Source: an uncultured Sphingomonadaceae bacterium (GTDB lineage: Bacteria; Pseudomonadota; Alphaproteobacteria; Sphingomonadales; Sphingomonadaceae). Taken from it: a stretch of 64,000 bases of DNA. The DNA lies in NCBI GenBank assembly GCA_938050045.1, contig CALLJS010000017.1:124001-188000 (forward strand), read 5' to 3'. Every line of letters begins with the position of its first letter. The stretch's first letter is position 1. The position numbers were made by a program, and so were the translations under genes. Shown here piece after piece: positions 46,812 through 52,893 of this stretch. Below the pieces are notes generated by a model. The model was not told the DNA's origin. It saw only the letters and a list, made by a program, of their open reading frames with translations, and did no database searches.

Positions 46812-47573
46812 GTGATAGCTGGATCGTGATTTCTAATATGCTATAGTAAAAATATAGGACATATAATTGTTGACTATGTTATAGCTGGACCGTGATTTCT
46901 AATATGCTATAGTCGAGCACATTCAGGCAAATTTGATTAAGCAGTTATAGCTGGACCGTGATTTCTAATATGCTATAGTGTTTTGTTGAGTAGGTCACGT
47001 ATTAATGTAGTTATAGCTGGACCGTGATTTCTAATATGCTATAGTTCAAATATTCGCGCACTTTGATGCCAAGCGGTTATAGCTGGACCGTGATTTCTAA
47101 TATGCTATAGTGAAGCGGCTGCAAAATATAACAATATACCAGTTATAGCTGGACCGTGATTTCTAATATGCTATAGTGTTGCTTGGTGGGACATCTGCCG
47201 TTGCTAGGTTATAGCTGGACCGTGATTTCTAATATGCTATAGTTTCGGATATACCGTAGCACACGTGGTATTTGTTATAGCTGGACCGTGATTTCTAATA
47301 TGCTATAGTGTTTCGGATATACCGTAGCACACGTGGTTTGTTATAGCTGGACCGTGATTTCTAATATGCTATAGTGTTTCGGATATACCGTAGCACACGT
47401 GGTTTGTTATAGCTGGACTGTGATTTCTAATATGCTATAGTTCAATATTTCCATCTAAAAACCCTGTATCAGTTATAGCTGGACTGTGATTTCTAATATG
47501 CTATAGTAGCCTGTAGCAATACATCCTCATAAAATGGGTTATAGCTGGACTGTGATTTCTAATATGCTATAGT
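46812..47573 (+). CRISPR. type II-C CRISPR array, 12 repeats of 36 bp, 11 spacers all 30 bp
   Basis: Consensus GTTATAGCTGGACCGTGATTTCTAATATGCTATAGT; repeats start at 46812 (degenerate, 2 mismatches), 46878, 46944, 47010, 47076, 47142, 47208, 47274, 47340, 47406, 47472, 47538; the last three carry C->T at position 14. Confidence 0.99.
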
Positions 47574-47648: not shown

Positions 47649-48032
47649 TTAAAATAATGCAAGTTGACCCGGATTTTTCCGCTGTCTTTTGCGGCTCTGC
47701 CCTGAAAAGCGTATGATGTTTGCATATTGTTTGTCCGTAAATCCTAAAATATGGATGTCGCCTTTATCGGGTAAATTTGATTCTATGTGCCGAATATATG
47801 TTTCAAACTGTTCTTTGCCCGAACAGAATCGGGCATAAATAGAAAATTGCGCCATTTCATAGCCTTCGTCCAGTAAAAATTCACGAAATTTTGATGCCGC
47901 TTTGGCTTCCTCGCGGGTTCCAACGGGAATATCGAACATGACCAAAATCCACATTATTTGATAACCGCTATAATGACCAGTTTCGACTGGTGGGGTAGTT
48001 TTCGGCGCGCTGAATTTTGCGGAACCATTCAT
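47649..48032 (-). CDS. cas2: CRISPR-associated endonuclease Cas2
   Basis: 127 aa; MWILVMFDIPVGTREEAKAASKFREFLLDEGYEMAQFSIYARFC; adjacent to array and cas1. Confidence 0.97.
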   Translation of the reverse strand: MNGSAKFSAPKTTPPVETGHYSGYQIMWILVMFDIPVGTREEAKAASKFREFLLDEGYEMAQFSIYARFCSGKEQFETYIRHIESNLPDKGDIHILGFTDKQYANIIRFSGQSRKRQRKNPGQLALF

Positions 48033-48967
48033 CTGGTCTCCCCATCGGGAACATGCCTTGCTATTGCCATCCAGCCTAATGCTGTTGGTGGCTCGAACAA
48101 AGCGAGTGATAAATTATTATTGTCAAAACTTTTTGCTAAGCTTTGGCATAATCTTTGTGCCGCAATTGTTGTCGGTGACGTCATGCCGTGCAATGTTAAA
48201 TCAGCGCAAATAAGCGCAGCAAGCCGTTGTTTGACTATTGAGTCTATATCTTCCAGTCCCTCTTTTATCATTTGATACACAAGCGCGTCGACCAGGGGAC
48301 GAAAAGGCTCAACCAAATCATCTGCAAGGGCAAAAGCGTTAAGCCGATTGGCGTGATGCAGCCCAATGGTTGGGTGCAAACCCGATGCAACAATGTTACG
48401 TGCAATTAAGGAGCGCATGATCGTATAACCATAATTTAGCATAGCATTCGCGCCATGGGCATCGCGATTGCGCCGAAAGTCTTTGCCCATAAGAGCAGGC
48501 CAATAGCGGCGGGCTGCTTGCGCCTCCATATTATTGGGATCGCCCGATTTTACGCGGCCCGCCATAAAATTAAGCGCCTCGGCCTCGGGGTGATTATGTG
48601 CGGCTAGTAGGCTGGCTTGCATCTTTATTTTTGCAATGACGATGGCTTTCCAAGCCCGTTTCATCAAAGGTCGCGAAGCATCCCATTGGGCCCTGAACCG
48701 AGCATTTTGTTCATGATTGCCATCAATGGGAATGGTCATGGCAACGGGGGCATGATTGGCGGCGCATAACACCATCATCGCGCCGCGCTCTGCCAATTTC
48801 ACCACCAAATTGGTGGTCCATGTCACGCCGTGGGCATGCACTATGATGGCGGCGATGTCGTCTAATGCCACCCGTCCAATTTCACTATGATCGCGCGATA
48901 ATATTAATAGACCGCGATGCACAGATAGATGCACCTTGTCTGTTGAGACGTCAACAATACGATCCAT
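48029..48967 (-). CDS. cas1: CRISPR-associated endonuclease Cas1 (type II)
   Basis: 312 aa; LLILSRDHSEIGRVALDDIAAIIVHAHGVTWTTNLVVKLAERGAMMVLC...NAMLNYGYTIMRSLIARNIVASGLHPTIGLHH. Confidence 0.98.
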   Translation of the reverse strand: MDRIVDVSTDKVHLSVHRGLLILSRDHSEIGRVALDDIAAIIVHAHGVTWTTNLVVKLAERGAMMVLCAANHAPVAMTIPIDGNHEQNARFRAQWDASRPLMKRAWKAIVIAKIKMQASLLAAHNHPEAEALNFMAGRVKSGDPNNMEAQAARRYWPALMGKDFRRNRDAHGANAMLNYGYTIMRSLIARNIVASGLHPTIGLHHANRLNAFALADDLVEPFRPLVDALVYQMIKEGLEDIDSIVKQRLAALICADLTLHGMTSPTTIAAQRLCQSLAKSFDNNNLSLALFEPPTALGWMAIARHVPDGETR

Positions 48968-49016: not shown

Positions 49017-52000
49017 TTAATCGAGCGGTCCAGGATCGAATATATGGCCCAATTCATTAATGCCTATTTGCCGGGCCTTCATTTTTTGCAGGCCGCTAGC
49101 CGAAGTGTTTATATATTTAAAAGGATCGATAGCATCTGCATCTCTTGCTTTTAATGAACCTGCTTCATTATCGGGGGCAAGCTGGATAGCCCCCGATGCA
49201 GCAAATTTGACCACGCGGGCAATAATATTCTCGCCATCGCGTTCGATGGCCATCATATCATTTTGACGCAGGCTTAAGATGCGTTTGGCTGCGGGATGCG
49301 GTTTTATCTCGGCCATACCGCTCTGATGGGCATCAAACATTGATATGATGCTGTTATGCGCCGCGCCATCACGGTCTTTCCATTTGGTGATCCATTTGCC
49401 ATTTGGCATTCTCCACACATCAAAGCGTGCATTGGCATCGCCTTTATACGCTTTATAGGCTTTGCCATGCTTGTCTGTAATCGGAATGACTTTGAGCGCT
49501 TCACACAGCCTTACCCGCCTAATCCCTTTATAGGGGCCATCGCGCTTAGCAAAGGCGCGCAAGGCACTTTCAAACGCTTTGCCGCTGGTATCGCGTGTTG
49601 CAGTGTATAAGGCGTCTTGCAGGACATGATCGCTCATACGCTCTGGGTTGGTGAGATCTTTGGGTTGGAGCGATAATAATGGTTTGCGCGTCACCACAAT
49701 CGGCGCGCCCTTGGCATTGGTGCGCCCTGTTAAACCATAAGCGGTTTCATTGTGCAGCCGTCCTGAAGTATTATCTTTACCGGGTTCAGGCTTTTTTCTG
49801 CGGCCATGATCGGCTTTGTGGCTGATTGTCGTGGCCAATAATGCAGTGCGTAAGTCGTCTCGAAATCCCTTCCAAGGTTGCGGCAGACCATCAAATTTTT
49901 TATCTAAATTTTGGGTTTCGGCGCGCCCCGCAGCGGTCGCAATTTTTTGAATCATGGCTCGGTCGGTCGCGCCAACAACGGCGGCATCAATCGCATGGTG
50001 GCGATGATCGAGCCGGTTTTTGGGCGCATTGCTATGTTCATTTTCGACCCAATTATGATCGGCTAAAATATCGTTTAATCCCCACAAACGGCGCAGCATC
50101 GATGTCATACGGCCCGTAACAGCATAGACGCGGCAGCCTTCGTCGGGTGTATATAATGCACCGACATATTTGGCGGCAAGGCGCGCCAGATATTGGGTAT
50201 CGGTTAATTGGCGCGCGATGAACCCGCCGTCTTTTTCAACTTTTTCCATGGCATTAGGGCCAAAGCGCCATTGCTTTGATGTGTGCATACGCGCCACTTG
50301 CGCTTGAATTATGGGCCAGCGATCCGTTTTGCCCCAACGGCCCCACGGCGTTTGTTGTCCTTTTTCTCTGTTGCAATGGCTATGGCAAATGATTTTATTC
50401 GCCGCGCCATCATCCAAACATTTGGAATAGGGAATGATATGATCAACATCGGCTTCGCTGTTCATCAGCATTTCTATCGTCACCTGCTCGCCGCAATAGG
50501 GGCAACGGCGGTCAAGAGCGTTTTTAGGATTGAGTTCCTCCCAAAGGCGCAGCAACATGCGGTTGCCGCCATTGTCGCGTTGCCCCATCGATTCTAATAT
50601 TTCCCCGCGTGCTTTCGCAGCATCGGTATTGCGTTTAATACGGCGATTTTGTTCGGCCTTTTGTTTGTCGTTTAACTTTAATTCGCGGGCGAGTTCGACA
50701 TAAATATAATCGGGCCGTCCATGGATTTTGATAATCGCATTGATAAGCTTGCGCAATTGGTTCATGCCAATATGCACGGTGGGGTTGGTTATTTTGCCAT
50801 ATTGGCGTTCGGTATCATCCCTATATTCCTCTTTACCAGGGGCAATGTCGCGCGTTAATATTTCCCCATAATAAGGGAGCTGCGTTATATTTTTGCCCGT
50901 GCGCTGATCGCTATGGTTAAATCCTGCGCGCTTTGCAGCCTCGGCATAGGTTATCACCTCTTGTTTCAGCTCTTTGAGCAGCATTTGGGTGGCCATAATT
51001 CCAAAACGGCCATAACCCTCTGGCAGGCGAACATTAGCAATATTGGTTGCTGTTTCTGCGTCTAATTGATGCTGCTCCATCAACCAATGGAGCAATTTTT
51101 CTGTATTTTCCTCTTCTGTTAATTGATGGATAATCGCTAATTGGTCTTGGGTGGAAAAAGCACCCCATTGGCCATTAAAACATTTTTTGGCGTTCATGGC
51201 GGCGCGCACTTCATCGCCCAATAGGTCTTTGCGGTTTTCGCTTTCTTTGTTAAATCTCTCGCCGCTGGCCAATTTAAGGGTCTTGGCCAAAGATTTGAAA
51301 GTGACTTTTTTCGAGTTTTGCAACTTCATGATTAACGCATCGCGCTCATCCATTGTCAATTTGCGCGATGATGCGCCGGCTATTTCAATTTCTAGCTGAT
51401 TTACTTCCTCATATAATCGGCGCTGCTGGAACAAAGGATGGGCTTTGGCAATGCGCCGCTCATCAGCAGGGACACCGTTCCAGCCTGAAAATGTGCAAAA
51501 TCCGACTACTTGCGCTTTTAATGGCCTTTGAAAAAATATTATGCGCGCAATGGCATCATGCGCTTCTTGGGTTAATATAGCGCGATGATATTTTTGCTGC
51601 GCTTGCCAAATTTGGGCAAATTCATCTTGATAATGTCTGCGATCGGGATAAAAATCATAGCCATCGCCTTCGGGTCGCATGCGCACCCGTTTGCCGATGC
51701 TTATTGTTTTTGTTTTACCGTTTTTGCTCGCTCCTTTGACGGTTTGGCTGACATCGCGTTTCAATAAAAATTCGCCCAAGGTGCGTGCTTGTAATCGCTC
51801 CATTTCGGCATCAAGGGCTTTGGTGCCGCTGGCGATTTTACCATCCTCTCCCGCAACACGGTCTGCTTTACGATTAGACTTAAAACCGCGCCGCTGGTTG
51901 AGATGAAATAGCGCGCGGCCAAGCTGATGCAGCGTGATTTCTTCATCCAATGCTGTGACGCGCAATATATAAGGATCAAATATCTCTAATGCCTTTGCCG

Positions 52001-52253
52001 CCATTTGATCGCGCGGCAACAGGCCATAGTGCCGTAATGCTTTTAACAGGGCAGTACGACGCCCTTTATAGCGGTCTCTGCGGCGGCGCATCGCGCGGGC
52101 ATCGCGCCGATCAACCGCGAGGCTTGCCCCTGATTTGGGATCGCGGCCATCGGAAAATATACGAACCCCGATATCACGAATAATATCACCATCATAATAG
52201 CACCAACCGATTGAATTGGTCCCAATATCCAGCCCAAGCTTTGTGCTAACCAT
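49017..52253 (-). CDS. cas9: type II-C Cas9 endonuclease (about 1078 aa)
   Basis: ORF 49017-52274; start refined to ATG 52253 preceded by GGAGGTGAAA; RuvC-I LGLDIGTNSIGW, HNH CPYCGEQVTIEMLMNSEADVDHIIPYSKCLDDGAANKIICHSHCNREKG, RuvC-III HRHHAIDAAVVG; no csn2 or cas4 next to it. Confidence 0.99.
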   Translation of the reverse strand: MVSTKLGLDIGTNSIGWCYYDGDIIRDIGVRIFSDGRDPKSGASLAVDRRDARAMRRRRDRYKGRRTALLKALRHYGLLPRDQMAAKALEIFDPYILRVTALDEEITLHQLGRALFHLNQRRGFKSNRKADRVAGEDGKIASGTKALDAEMERLQARTLGEFLLKRDVSQTVKGASKNGKTKTISIGKRVRMRPEGDGYDFYPDRRHYQDEFAQIWQAQQKYHRAILTQEAHDAIARIIFFQRPLKAQVVGFCTFSGWNGVPADERRIAKAHPLFQQRRLYEEVNQLEIEIAGASSRKLTMDERDALIMKLQNSKKVTFKSLAKTLKLASGERFNKESENRKDLLGDEVRAAMNAKKCFNGQWGAFSTQDQLAIIHQLTEEENTEKLLHWLMEQHQLDAETATNIANVRLPEGYGRFGIMATQMLLKELKQEVITYAEAAKRAGFNHSDQRTGKNITQLPYYGEILTRDIAPGKEEYRDDTERQYGKITNPTVHIGMNQLRKLINAIIKIHGRPDYIYVELARELKLNDKQKAEQNRRIKRNTDAAKARGEILESMGQRDNGGNRMLLRLWEELNPKNALDRRCPYCGEQVTIEMLMNSEADVDHIIPYSKCLDDGAANKIICHSHCNREKGQQTPWGRWGKTDRWPIIQAQVARMHTSKQWRFGPNAMEKVEKDGGFIARQLTDTQYLARLAAKYVGALYTPDEGCRVYAVTGRMTSMLRRLWGLNDILADHNWVENEHSNAPKNRLDHRHHAIDAAVVGATDRAMIQKIATAAGRAETQNLDKKFDGLPQPWKGFRDDLRTALLATTISHKADHGRRKKPEPGKDNTSGRLHNETAYGLTGRTNAKGAPIVVTRKPLLSLQPKDLTNPERMSDHVLQDALYTATRDTSGKAFESALRAFAKRDGPYKGIRRVRLCEALKVIPITDKHGKAYKAYKGDANARFDVWRMPNGKWITKWKDRDGAAHNSIISMFDAHQSGMAEIKPHPAAKRILSLRQNDMMAIERDGENIIARVVKFAASGAIQLAPDNEAGSLKARDADAIDPFKYINTSASGLQKMKARQIGINELGHIFDPGPLD

Positions 52254-52273: not shown

Positions 52274-52304
52274 CCCTACAATAAAAATCAATGCCCTACA
52301 ATAA
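52274..52304. repeat. two direct copies of CCCTACAATAA in the cas9 5' region, 20 bp apart
   Basis: 52274-52284 and 52294-52304, exact. Confidence 0.9.
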
Positions 52305-52326
52305 GATATACATTGACTTCTGACTT

Positions 52327-52355
52327 ATTATAGTTTAGGCAGCTTTTAGTGCTAA
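52327..52355 (-). promoter_or_regulatory. predicted cas9 promoter
   Basis: minus strand TTAGCA (52355-52350) - 17 bp - TATAAT (52332-52327); implied start near 52320. Confidence 0.6.
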
Positions 52356-52362
52356 GAAATTT

Positions 52363-52402
52363 ACTCACTCTCAGTAGGATTCAAACCTAATTGAGAGTGA
52401 GT
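52363..52402. repeat. hairpin between cas9 promoter and tracrRNA locus
   Basis: ACTCACTCTCA / TGAGAGTGAGT perfect 11-bp inverted repeat with inner TAGG/CCTA and loop ATTCAAA. Confidence 0.85.
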
Positions 52403-52544
52403 TAGCAATCATTTAGAAGTGTTGTGAAAGAATATTAGCACAAGAGGATGGTGTCCACAACTATCTTCGAACATACAATATTTGATATTATACGATTAAT
52501 TAGTAGACATCTTATTGTAGTTTCAGTTGGGCCGTGATTTTTAT

Positions 52545-52570
52545 TTGACAATAATGGTCAAATCTATAGT
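52545..52570 (+). promoter_or_regulatory. predicted short tracrRNA promoter
   Basis: TTGACA (52545-52550) and TATAGT (52565-52570); spacing only 14 bp. Confidence 0.55.
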
Positions 52571-52576
52571 TATAGA

Positions 52577-52653
52577 TTATTAGAAATCACGGTCCAGTTG
52601 TTAACAAGCAGCTTGACTGCACCAAATAAGGCAGAGGCTACGGCCTCTGTTTT
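52577..52653 (+). ncRNA. tracrRNA (short form)
   Basis: anti-repeat TATTAGAAATCACGGTCCAG (52578-52597) is the exact reverse complement of 20 nt of the CRISPR repeat; GCAG-CTTGA-CTGC hairpin; terminator CAGAGGC-TACG-GCCTCTG then TTTT. Confidence 0.92.
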
Positions 52654-52893
52654 CATATTGGCCTGATATTTTTATCATGACATGTTCGTTCTAAACAGTG
52701 CAATCATTCAAATTGACGCCGCTTCATTGACGCCGCTTCATTGATCCTGTGGTATTGTTTTTCGTATGCCCTTCCGTGCGGCTCTTGCGCGCGACATGCC
52801 GATATTCTGTATGAATTTTGATGAAACTCCGTGCATGAATATGCCAATGGGCCTTAATCAGACTTATATGGGAGAGACAGGGATAGGAAAAAA

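Follow-up and report, generated by a model that had tools for sequence, protein, structure and literature searches.

What is a degenerate CRISPR repeat doing upstream of a complete tracrRNA, in the same orientation, in the type II-C CRISPR-Cas locus of an uncultured sphingomonad? We consider it likely that the two form a natural single-guide RNA (sgRNA), similar to the tracr-L of Streptococcus type II-A systems, by which the II-C Cas9 would repress its own operon. The degenerate repeat, its pairing in cis, a unique seed match upstream of cas9 and the recurrence of this arrangement with concerted changes in related loci are demonstrated below, and the regulatory activity is inferred from them.

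The stretch of DNA analysed here (64 kb, hereafter the window) is part of a 264-kb contig from a 2.42-Mb genome. The nearest named relatives of its Cas9 are those of uncultured Sphingorhabdus, with 88–90% identity. On the minus strand, cas9 (49017–52253, with an ATG at 52253), cas1 (48029–48967) and cas2 (47649–48032) correspond to the NCBIfam profiles for Cas9 (TIGR01865), Cas1 of the NMENI type (TIGR03639) and Cas2, and no additional cas gene was seen among them. Since the locus contains cas9, cas1 and cas2 only and its Cas1 is of the NMENI type, it belongs to type II-C and not to type II-A. Alignment with solved Cas9 structures showed that the catalytic motifs of RuvC (LDIGTNSIGW, HHAIDAA) and HNH (VDHIIPYS) are kept; the protein should therefore be cutting-competent, as far as can be inferred from sequence alone. 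The CRISPR array (about 46812–47573, crRNA on the plus strand) comprises about 12 repeats of 36 nt, reading GTTATAGCTGGACCGTGATTTCTAATATGCTATAGT on the plus strand, and spacers of 30 nt. None of these spacers is directed at the cas9 region beyond what chance would give. Consecutive spacers at 47208–47405 are near-identical (TTCGGATATACCGTAGCACACGTGGTATTT, then GTTTCGGATATACCGTAGCACACGTGGTTT twice), a case of spacer duplication with slippage. Rfam returned only tRNA at the gathering threshold, and chance miRNA matches in permissive mode.

The tracrRNA is encoded on the plus strand, divergently from cas9. Its anti-repeat (52581–52600) is complementary to both the array repeat and the degenerate repeat, and its body (52601–52653), which is conserved in sphingomonad relatives, consists of a nexus (GTTAACAAGCAGCTTGACTGC) and a terminator hairpin (CAGAGGC-TACG-GCCTCTG followed by a T run, the stem being scored on the opposite strand). 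The degenerate repeat, GTTTCAGTTGGGCCGTGATTTTTA, lies at 52520–52543 on the plus strand, 5′ of the complete tracrRNA. A preliminary description, made from the sequence without database searches, had proposed that this repeat pairs in cis with the anti-repeat and that its substitutions preserve the pairing, and both claims held. Positions 52524–52543 form 20 uninterrupted pairs with 52600–52581, four of them G-U, and 52520–52522 can pair with 52605–52603, as had also been stated. Within the stretch that pairs with the anti-repeat, the degenerate repeat departs from the array repeat by three substitutions (C to T, A to G and C to T), all of which become G-U wobbles, so that pairing is kept. The duplex reaches −26.2 kcal/mol, against −8.7 ± 2.7 for shuffled sequences, none of which was as good (0/200). 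The same description had suggested folding 52498–52653; the segment that we folded, 52498–52655, is far more stable than its shuffles (z = −6.3). A BLAST search of the region against the genome found no further copies besides the array repeats.

The promoters are less clear. For the short tracrRNA, TTGACA (52545–52550) is followed after 17 nt by AGTTAT (52568–52573), the whole element spanning 52545–52573 on the plus strand. The TTGACA/TATAGT pair originally put forward held only in part: TATAGT (52565–52570) stands just 14 nt from TTGACA and the hexamer at 17 nt is AGTTAT, which makes the promoter weaker than claimed. A TTGAC- element is also found upstream of the tracrRNA in relatives. The candidate promoter of the long form, an extended −10 (TGATATTAT, 52483–52491, plus strand), is present as described, its −10 ending 28 nt before the repeat, but it lacks a good −35 at the usual distance. 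A start inferred 7 nt after this element would give a predicted full guide of about 22 nt (52498–52519, plus strand). Promoter scoring in the relatives gave a weak signal, with a promoter-like pair whose −10 ends at −25 to −31 from the repeat in about half of them. The self-contained, tracr-L-like sgRNA of the preliminary description is supported by the sequence, but its long transcript is inferred from sequence alone: the evidence for a long-form promoter is weak and no expression data stand behind the RNA.

The preliminary description missed a match between the guide and the cas9 upstream region. The 11 nt directly 5′ of the degenerate repeat, which we call the guide seed (ATCTTATTGTA, 52509–52519, plus strand), recur exactly once elsewhere in the window, at 52307–52297 on the minus strand, within the cas9 leader or promoter. 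This site precedes the cas9 start codon by about 45 nt and closely follows a candidate cas9 promoter, TTAGCA-17-TATAAT (52327–52355, minus strand), whose start site is not established. The predicted protospacer (52297–52318, minus strand) agrees with the guide at 11/11 seed positions and at only 4/9 PAM-distal ones. Beside the seed is a PAM-like flank (GGGCATTG, 52289–52296, minus strand) beginning with GGG, the consensus over relatives being RGGNRTTG. The seed together with an NGG (ATCTTATTGTANGG) is unique in the 2.42-Mb genome, occurring only upstream of cas9. In 20,000 first-order Markov shuffles of the cas9 upstream region, an exact 11-mer match appeared ten times, and never with a GG PAM. 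A second, shorter target-like copy (TTATTGTA, then GGG, with an 8-nt seed) was noticed in the sequence at 52274–52284 on the minus strand; it is another occurrence of TTATTGTAGGG, placed between the cas9 start codon and the main target, and could offer an additional, weaker site.

Relatives of this Cas9 were gathered from the family, the order, three genera, the class, GTDB species genomes, metagenomes and plasmids, and their cas9 upstream regions were compared in one common orientation. According to the preliminary description, the lack of a conserved degenerate repeat or pairing in homologous loci would refute the proposal. The feature survived this comparison: a degenerate repeat is present in the cas9–tracrRNA region of 21 Sphingomonadales II-C loci, and its duplex with the anti-repeat is better than about 98.5% of shuffles in 14 of the 19 testable ones. 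Approximately 18 related II-C systems display the arrangement with matching changes in guide and target. Across the 21 loci, the last 11 nt of the guide match the upstream region of their own cas9 at 9.67/11 positions on average (11/11 in eight loci, 10/11 in six). When guides were swapped between loci, the mean best match fell to 7.32/11, and none of 100,000 permutations reached the observed sum. Sliding the 11-nt query along each locus produced a peak at the repeat boundary (9.67 at offset 0) and a flat level of about 7.4 beyond 5 nt on its downstream side and 15 nt on its upstream side. The extent of the match is equally sharp. In the 17 loci counted by position, matches at PAM-proximal positions 1 to 11 number 17, 17, 14, 17, 15, 17, 16, 17, 15, 15 and 14, and those at positions 12 to 20 number 7, 5, 5, 3, 5, 5, 6, 4 and 2, that is, the chance level (27%).

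Even among close relatives, whose Cas9s are 88–91% identical, the seeds differ and the targets differ along with them. Guide and target are identical in locus L013 (AAACGTTACTA, flank GGGTGTTG), just as they are in the window with ATCTTATTGTA, and L009 pairs the guide AATCGTTATTA with the target AATCGTTAATA. The Porphyrobacter locus L012 shares 13 nt (ATGGATATGAGAT, target flank AGGAATTG). Shared guide ends with their target flanks were likewise read in L028 (AAGAGTGGTAG, GGGGATTG), L048 (ATTGGCTCTTA, again GGGGATTG, on the other strand), L027 (AGCACTACGT, AGGCATTG) and L078 (ATGCGCTAGGT, AGCGATTG). A single seed mismatch is found in each of L009, L018, L049, L064 and L067. Two loci with much more diverged Cas9s, L055 and L041, have 12-nt matches with other flanks (AGAAGGTA and GAAAACAT, respectively); the L041 match was read by eye and left out of the statistics.

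A referee may object to the way in which the boundaries were set. Automatic local alignment overlooked degenerate repeats that were short or bulged, and boundaries were consequently placed by eye from homology to the 5′ end of the repeat (GTTGC...), in some loci with the target already known. This bias is limited, but not removed, by the swap and offset tests. There are also exceptions. In L021, an 18-nt match between guide and target ends 2 nt before the repeat and has no NGG; L047 and L068 keep the degenerate repeat and have no target; and for L018, L068, L069 and L078 only poor or short pairing in cis is predicted.

The flanks of the targets provide a hint of the PAM. For matches chosen without any PAM rule, GG occupies positions +2 and +3 in 14/19 cases, against a background of 6.7% (P ~3e-13). 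Independent support from protospacers was sought with 930 spacers extracted from related arrays. The arrays of four loci gave no usable match in phages, and one array compared with plasmids gave mainly an IS element within the array region. When spacers or an array were compared with about 600 genomes, a single convincing protospacer was recovered, with two mismatches and the flank TGGTCGTT; its TGG fits NGG, but the longer consensus is not matched. The target flanks suggest an NGG-type PAM for this Cas9, which is not independently established, as protospacers are too few.

These observations can be assembled into a putative mechanism. Transcription from about 52498 to 52653 would yield one long RNA made up of a guide of some 22 nt, the degenerate repeat folded onto the anti-repeat, and the tracrRNA body, and Cas9 could load this RNA without a crRNA. 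The 11-nt seed, and not the remainder of the guide, matches the cas9 leader or promoter beside a putative NGG-type PAM. Because only the seed matches, Cas9 would be expected to bind its target without cutting it. Guides targeting up to 16 nt have indeed been reported to retain binding without cleavage (PMC10495392), and complementarity that is high for 11 nt and then drops to chance is what a binding-only guide would require, an inference that no experiment yet supports here. Bound Cas9 may in turn block transcription of cas9-cas1-cas2, closing a negative feedback loop. Many of the targets adjoin or overlap a −35 of the TTGAC type (RGGNAT-TGAC), and we therefore infer, as the simplest route to such a block, that RNA polymerase would be occluded.

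The alternative that survives best, although we regard it as unlikely, is a CreTA-like or dual module in which the guide mainly silences a divergent structured RNA, cas9 repression being a by-product or absent. Two hairpins with loops ATTCAAA and GTCCACA (52359–52467, plus strand) lie between target and guide in the window, as in some relatives. A strong hairpin with an RTYCAAA loop occupies this place in the window and in L018, L021, L031, L048, L069 and L041, the exact loop T[CT]CAAAC being present in 6/7 of these loci; a second hairpin often follows (loops UCCACAA/UCCAAA), and the stems are unrelated in sequence. These recurrent hairpins could possibly represent an additional conserved RNA. 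Besides their presence in the window and six relatives, the CreTA-like reading is favoured by the position of the target, between or over divergent promoter-like sites, and by the loci without a guide, which mostly lack the long intergenic region. Against it, no ORF or transcript is known in the hairpin region, no toxin-like feature was identified, and cas9 is the constant downstream gene, as about ten other loci have their strong hairpins on the cas9 side of the target, within the 5′ leader of that gene. Such leader hairpins were noted in L009, L013, L022, L027, L028, L049, L064, L067 and L078, and in several loci CTGGTGG(N)CC precedes them on the mRNA strand. A CreTA-like silencing of a structured RNA, as an additional or even the main role of the guide, is not excluded. 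A bolder version, for which we likewise see little probability, combines the natural sgRNA, a site between divergent promoters and the two-hairpin RNA into a three-part cassette. If true, a structured RNA would be under the control of Cas9 together with cas9 itself (through CreTA-like addiction or leader control), and types II-A and II-C would have evolved the 11-nt binding-only rule separately.

The remaining alternatives appear very improbable. The 11-mers could be binding sites of a transcription factor common to the cas9 and tracrRNA promoters, with the degenerate repeat as a relic; short motifs repeated near two divergent promoters are a typical sign of operators. However, the 11-mer ends exactly at the start of the degenerate repeat in nearly all loci, its other copy is followed by GG, and close relatives differ in the 11-mer and yet match within each locus, where operators would be conserved. 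The repeat could otherwise be a functionless remnant of an array, or a scar of the repeat duplication that founded the tracrRNA. Its retention without a target in L047 and L068 and its patchy distribution on the Cas9 tree (14 changes) speak for such a relic, but the preserved pairing and the concerted changes of guide and target would then be unexpected. The swap, offset and GG-flank controls are hard to reconcile with either an operator or a relic. Finally, partial guides can reach several sites, but an action of the long RNA in trans on other genes, like that of the Francisella novicida scaRNA, is scarcely tenable as the genome holds a single copy of the seed with NGG, the one upstream of cas9.

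The self-repressing sgRNA that we favour follows a logic already known from tracr-L of the type II-A systems of Streptococcus (Workman et al. 2021, cited in PMC8616872, PMC11417352 and PMC8730458). In S. pyogenes, tracr-L has an 11-nt match beside a PAM at the cas promoter, cleavage apparently being prevented, and it was reported not to be found outside some II-A systems (PMC8616872). Both elements unite a guide, a repeat-like segment, an anti-repeat and a tracr body in one RNA, with a complementarity of 11 nt to the region of the cas promoter, next to a PAM (in the window, a PAM-like flank), a catalytically competent Cas9, and a long and a short form of tracrRNA (the long form being inferred here). 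In contrast to tracr-L, the element of the window accompanies a II-C Cas9 (about 1,080 aa) in a locus limited to cas9-cas1-cas2 and has a different tracrRNA, its guides diverge between close relatives, there are extra intergenic hairpins, and no experiment has yet been done. No tracr-L outside type II-A was found in the literature searched (PMC11417352, PMC8730458, PMC12216829), which mostly did not include subscription papers, so that an earlier report is not excluded. A natural sgRNA acting on cas9 in type II-C, a function inferred here, thus appears to be new.

Likenesses to other regulators are more partial. CreR RNAs of types I-B, I-E and V-A (PMC13131331, PMC12737573) are also partially complementary to a cas promoter and mediate autorepression, which is inferred in our case; CreR is a crRNA-like RNA, whereas the window element belongs to a Cas9 system and has the single-guide form, and CreR was encountered only in types I and V-A in the literature searched (PMC13131331, PMC12737573). 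CreTA (PMC12737573) similarly uses a partial-match guide to repress a promoter in the cas locus, as we infer here, but no counterpart of its toxin was identified in the window, where cas9 is the gene adjoining the target. The F. novicida scaRNA (PMC8730458) shares a diverged non-array repeat, a partial guide and the use of an active Cas9 for repression (again inferred for the window), but it is a molecule separate from tracrRNA, with which it acts in trans on genes for lipoproteins, and cas9 is not its target; a partial guide directed at genes other than cas9, as in the Francisella type, was not found, the seed with NGG being confined to the cas9 upstream region. The scaRNA of Neisseria meningitidis (PMC13431127) is likewise a small RNA from outside the array that is associated with a II-C locus and binds Cas9 (a binding inferred here), but it acts post-transcriptionally on efeO mRNA and is not a natural sgRNA on the cas9 promoter.

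If our reading is true, Cas9 self-repression by a natural sgRNA extends from Streptococcus II-A to II-C systems of Alphaproteobacteria, which would correct the published statement on the range of tracr-L (PMC8616872). The 11-nt limit common to such distant Cas9s would suggest a general design rule for binding without cutting. It would also provide about 18 natural guide/target pairs with concerted changes, directly testable, as well as native sgRNA scaffolds and a hint of the PAM used by an uncharacterised family of compact Cas9s.

The module is scattered on a Cas9 tree of 56 rows, with 14 changes of state, and loci without it usually have a short cas9–tracrRNA region. Among cultured relatives, Altericroceibacterium indicum DSM 18604 carries the module. 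Repeated loss of the module is inferred from L047 and L068, where a degenerate repeat persists but the target is missing. Beyond the order, no degenerate repeat was seen upstream of tracrRNA in class-level relatives or in two plasmid loci. The tracrRNA of L079 is inverted, leaving the degenerate repeat and its guide-like 5′ flank to stand alone, and the arrangement resembles a crRNA-like, CreR-style version. Its target, AGCTA then TGGCATTG, is a weak match, and such an RNA would be a crRNA-like regulator in trans. Plasmids of many Pseudosulfitobacter pseudonitzschiae strains were also seen to carry a related cas9 (L198), flanked there by IS21 and IS66 elements.
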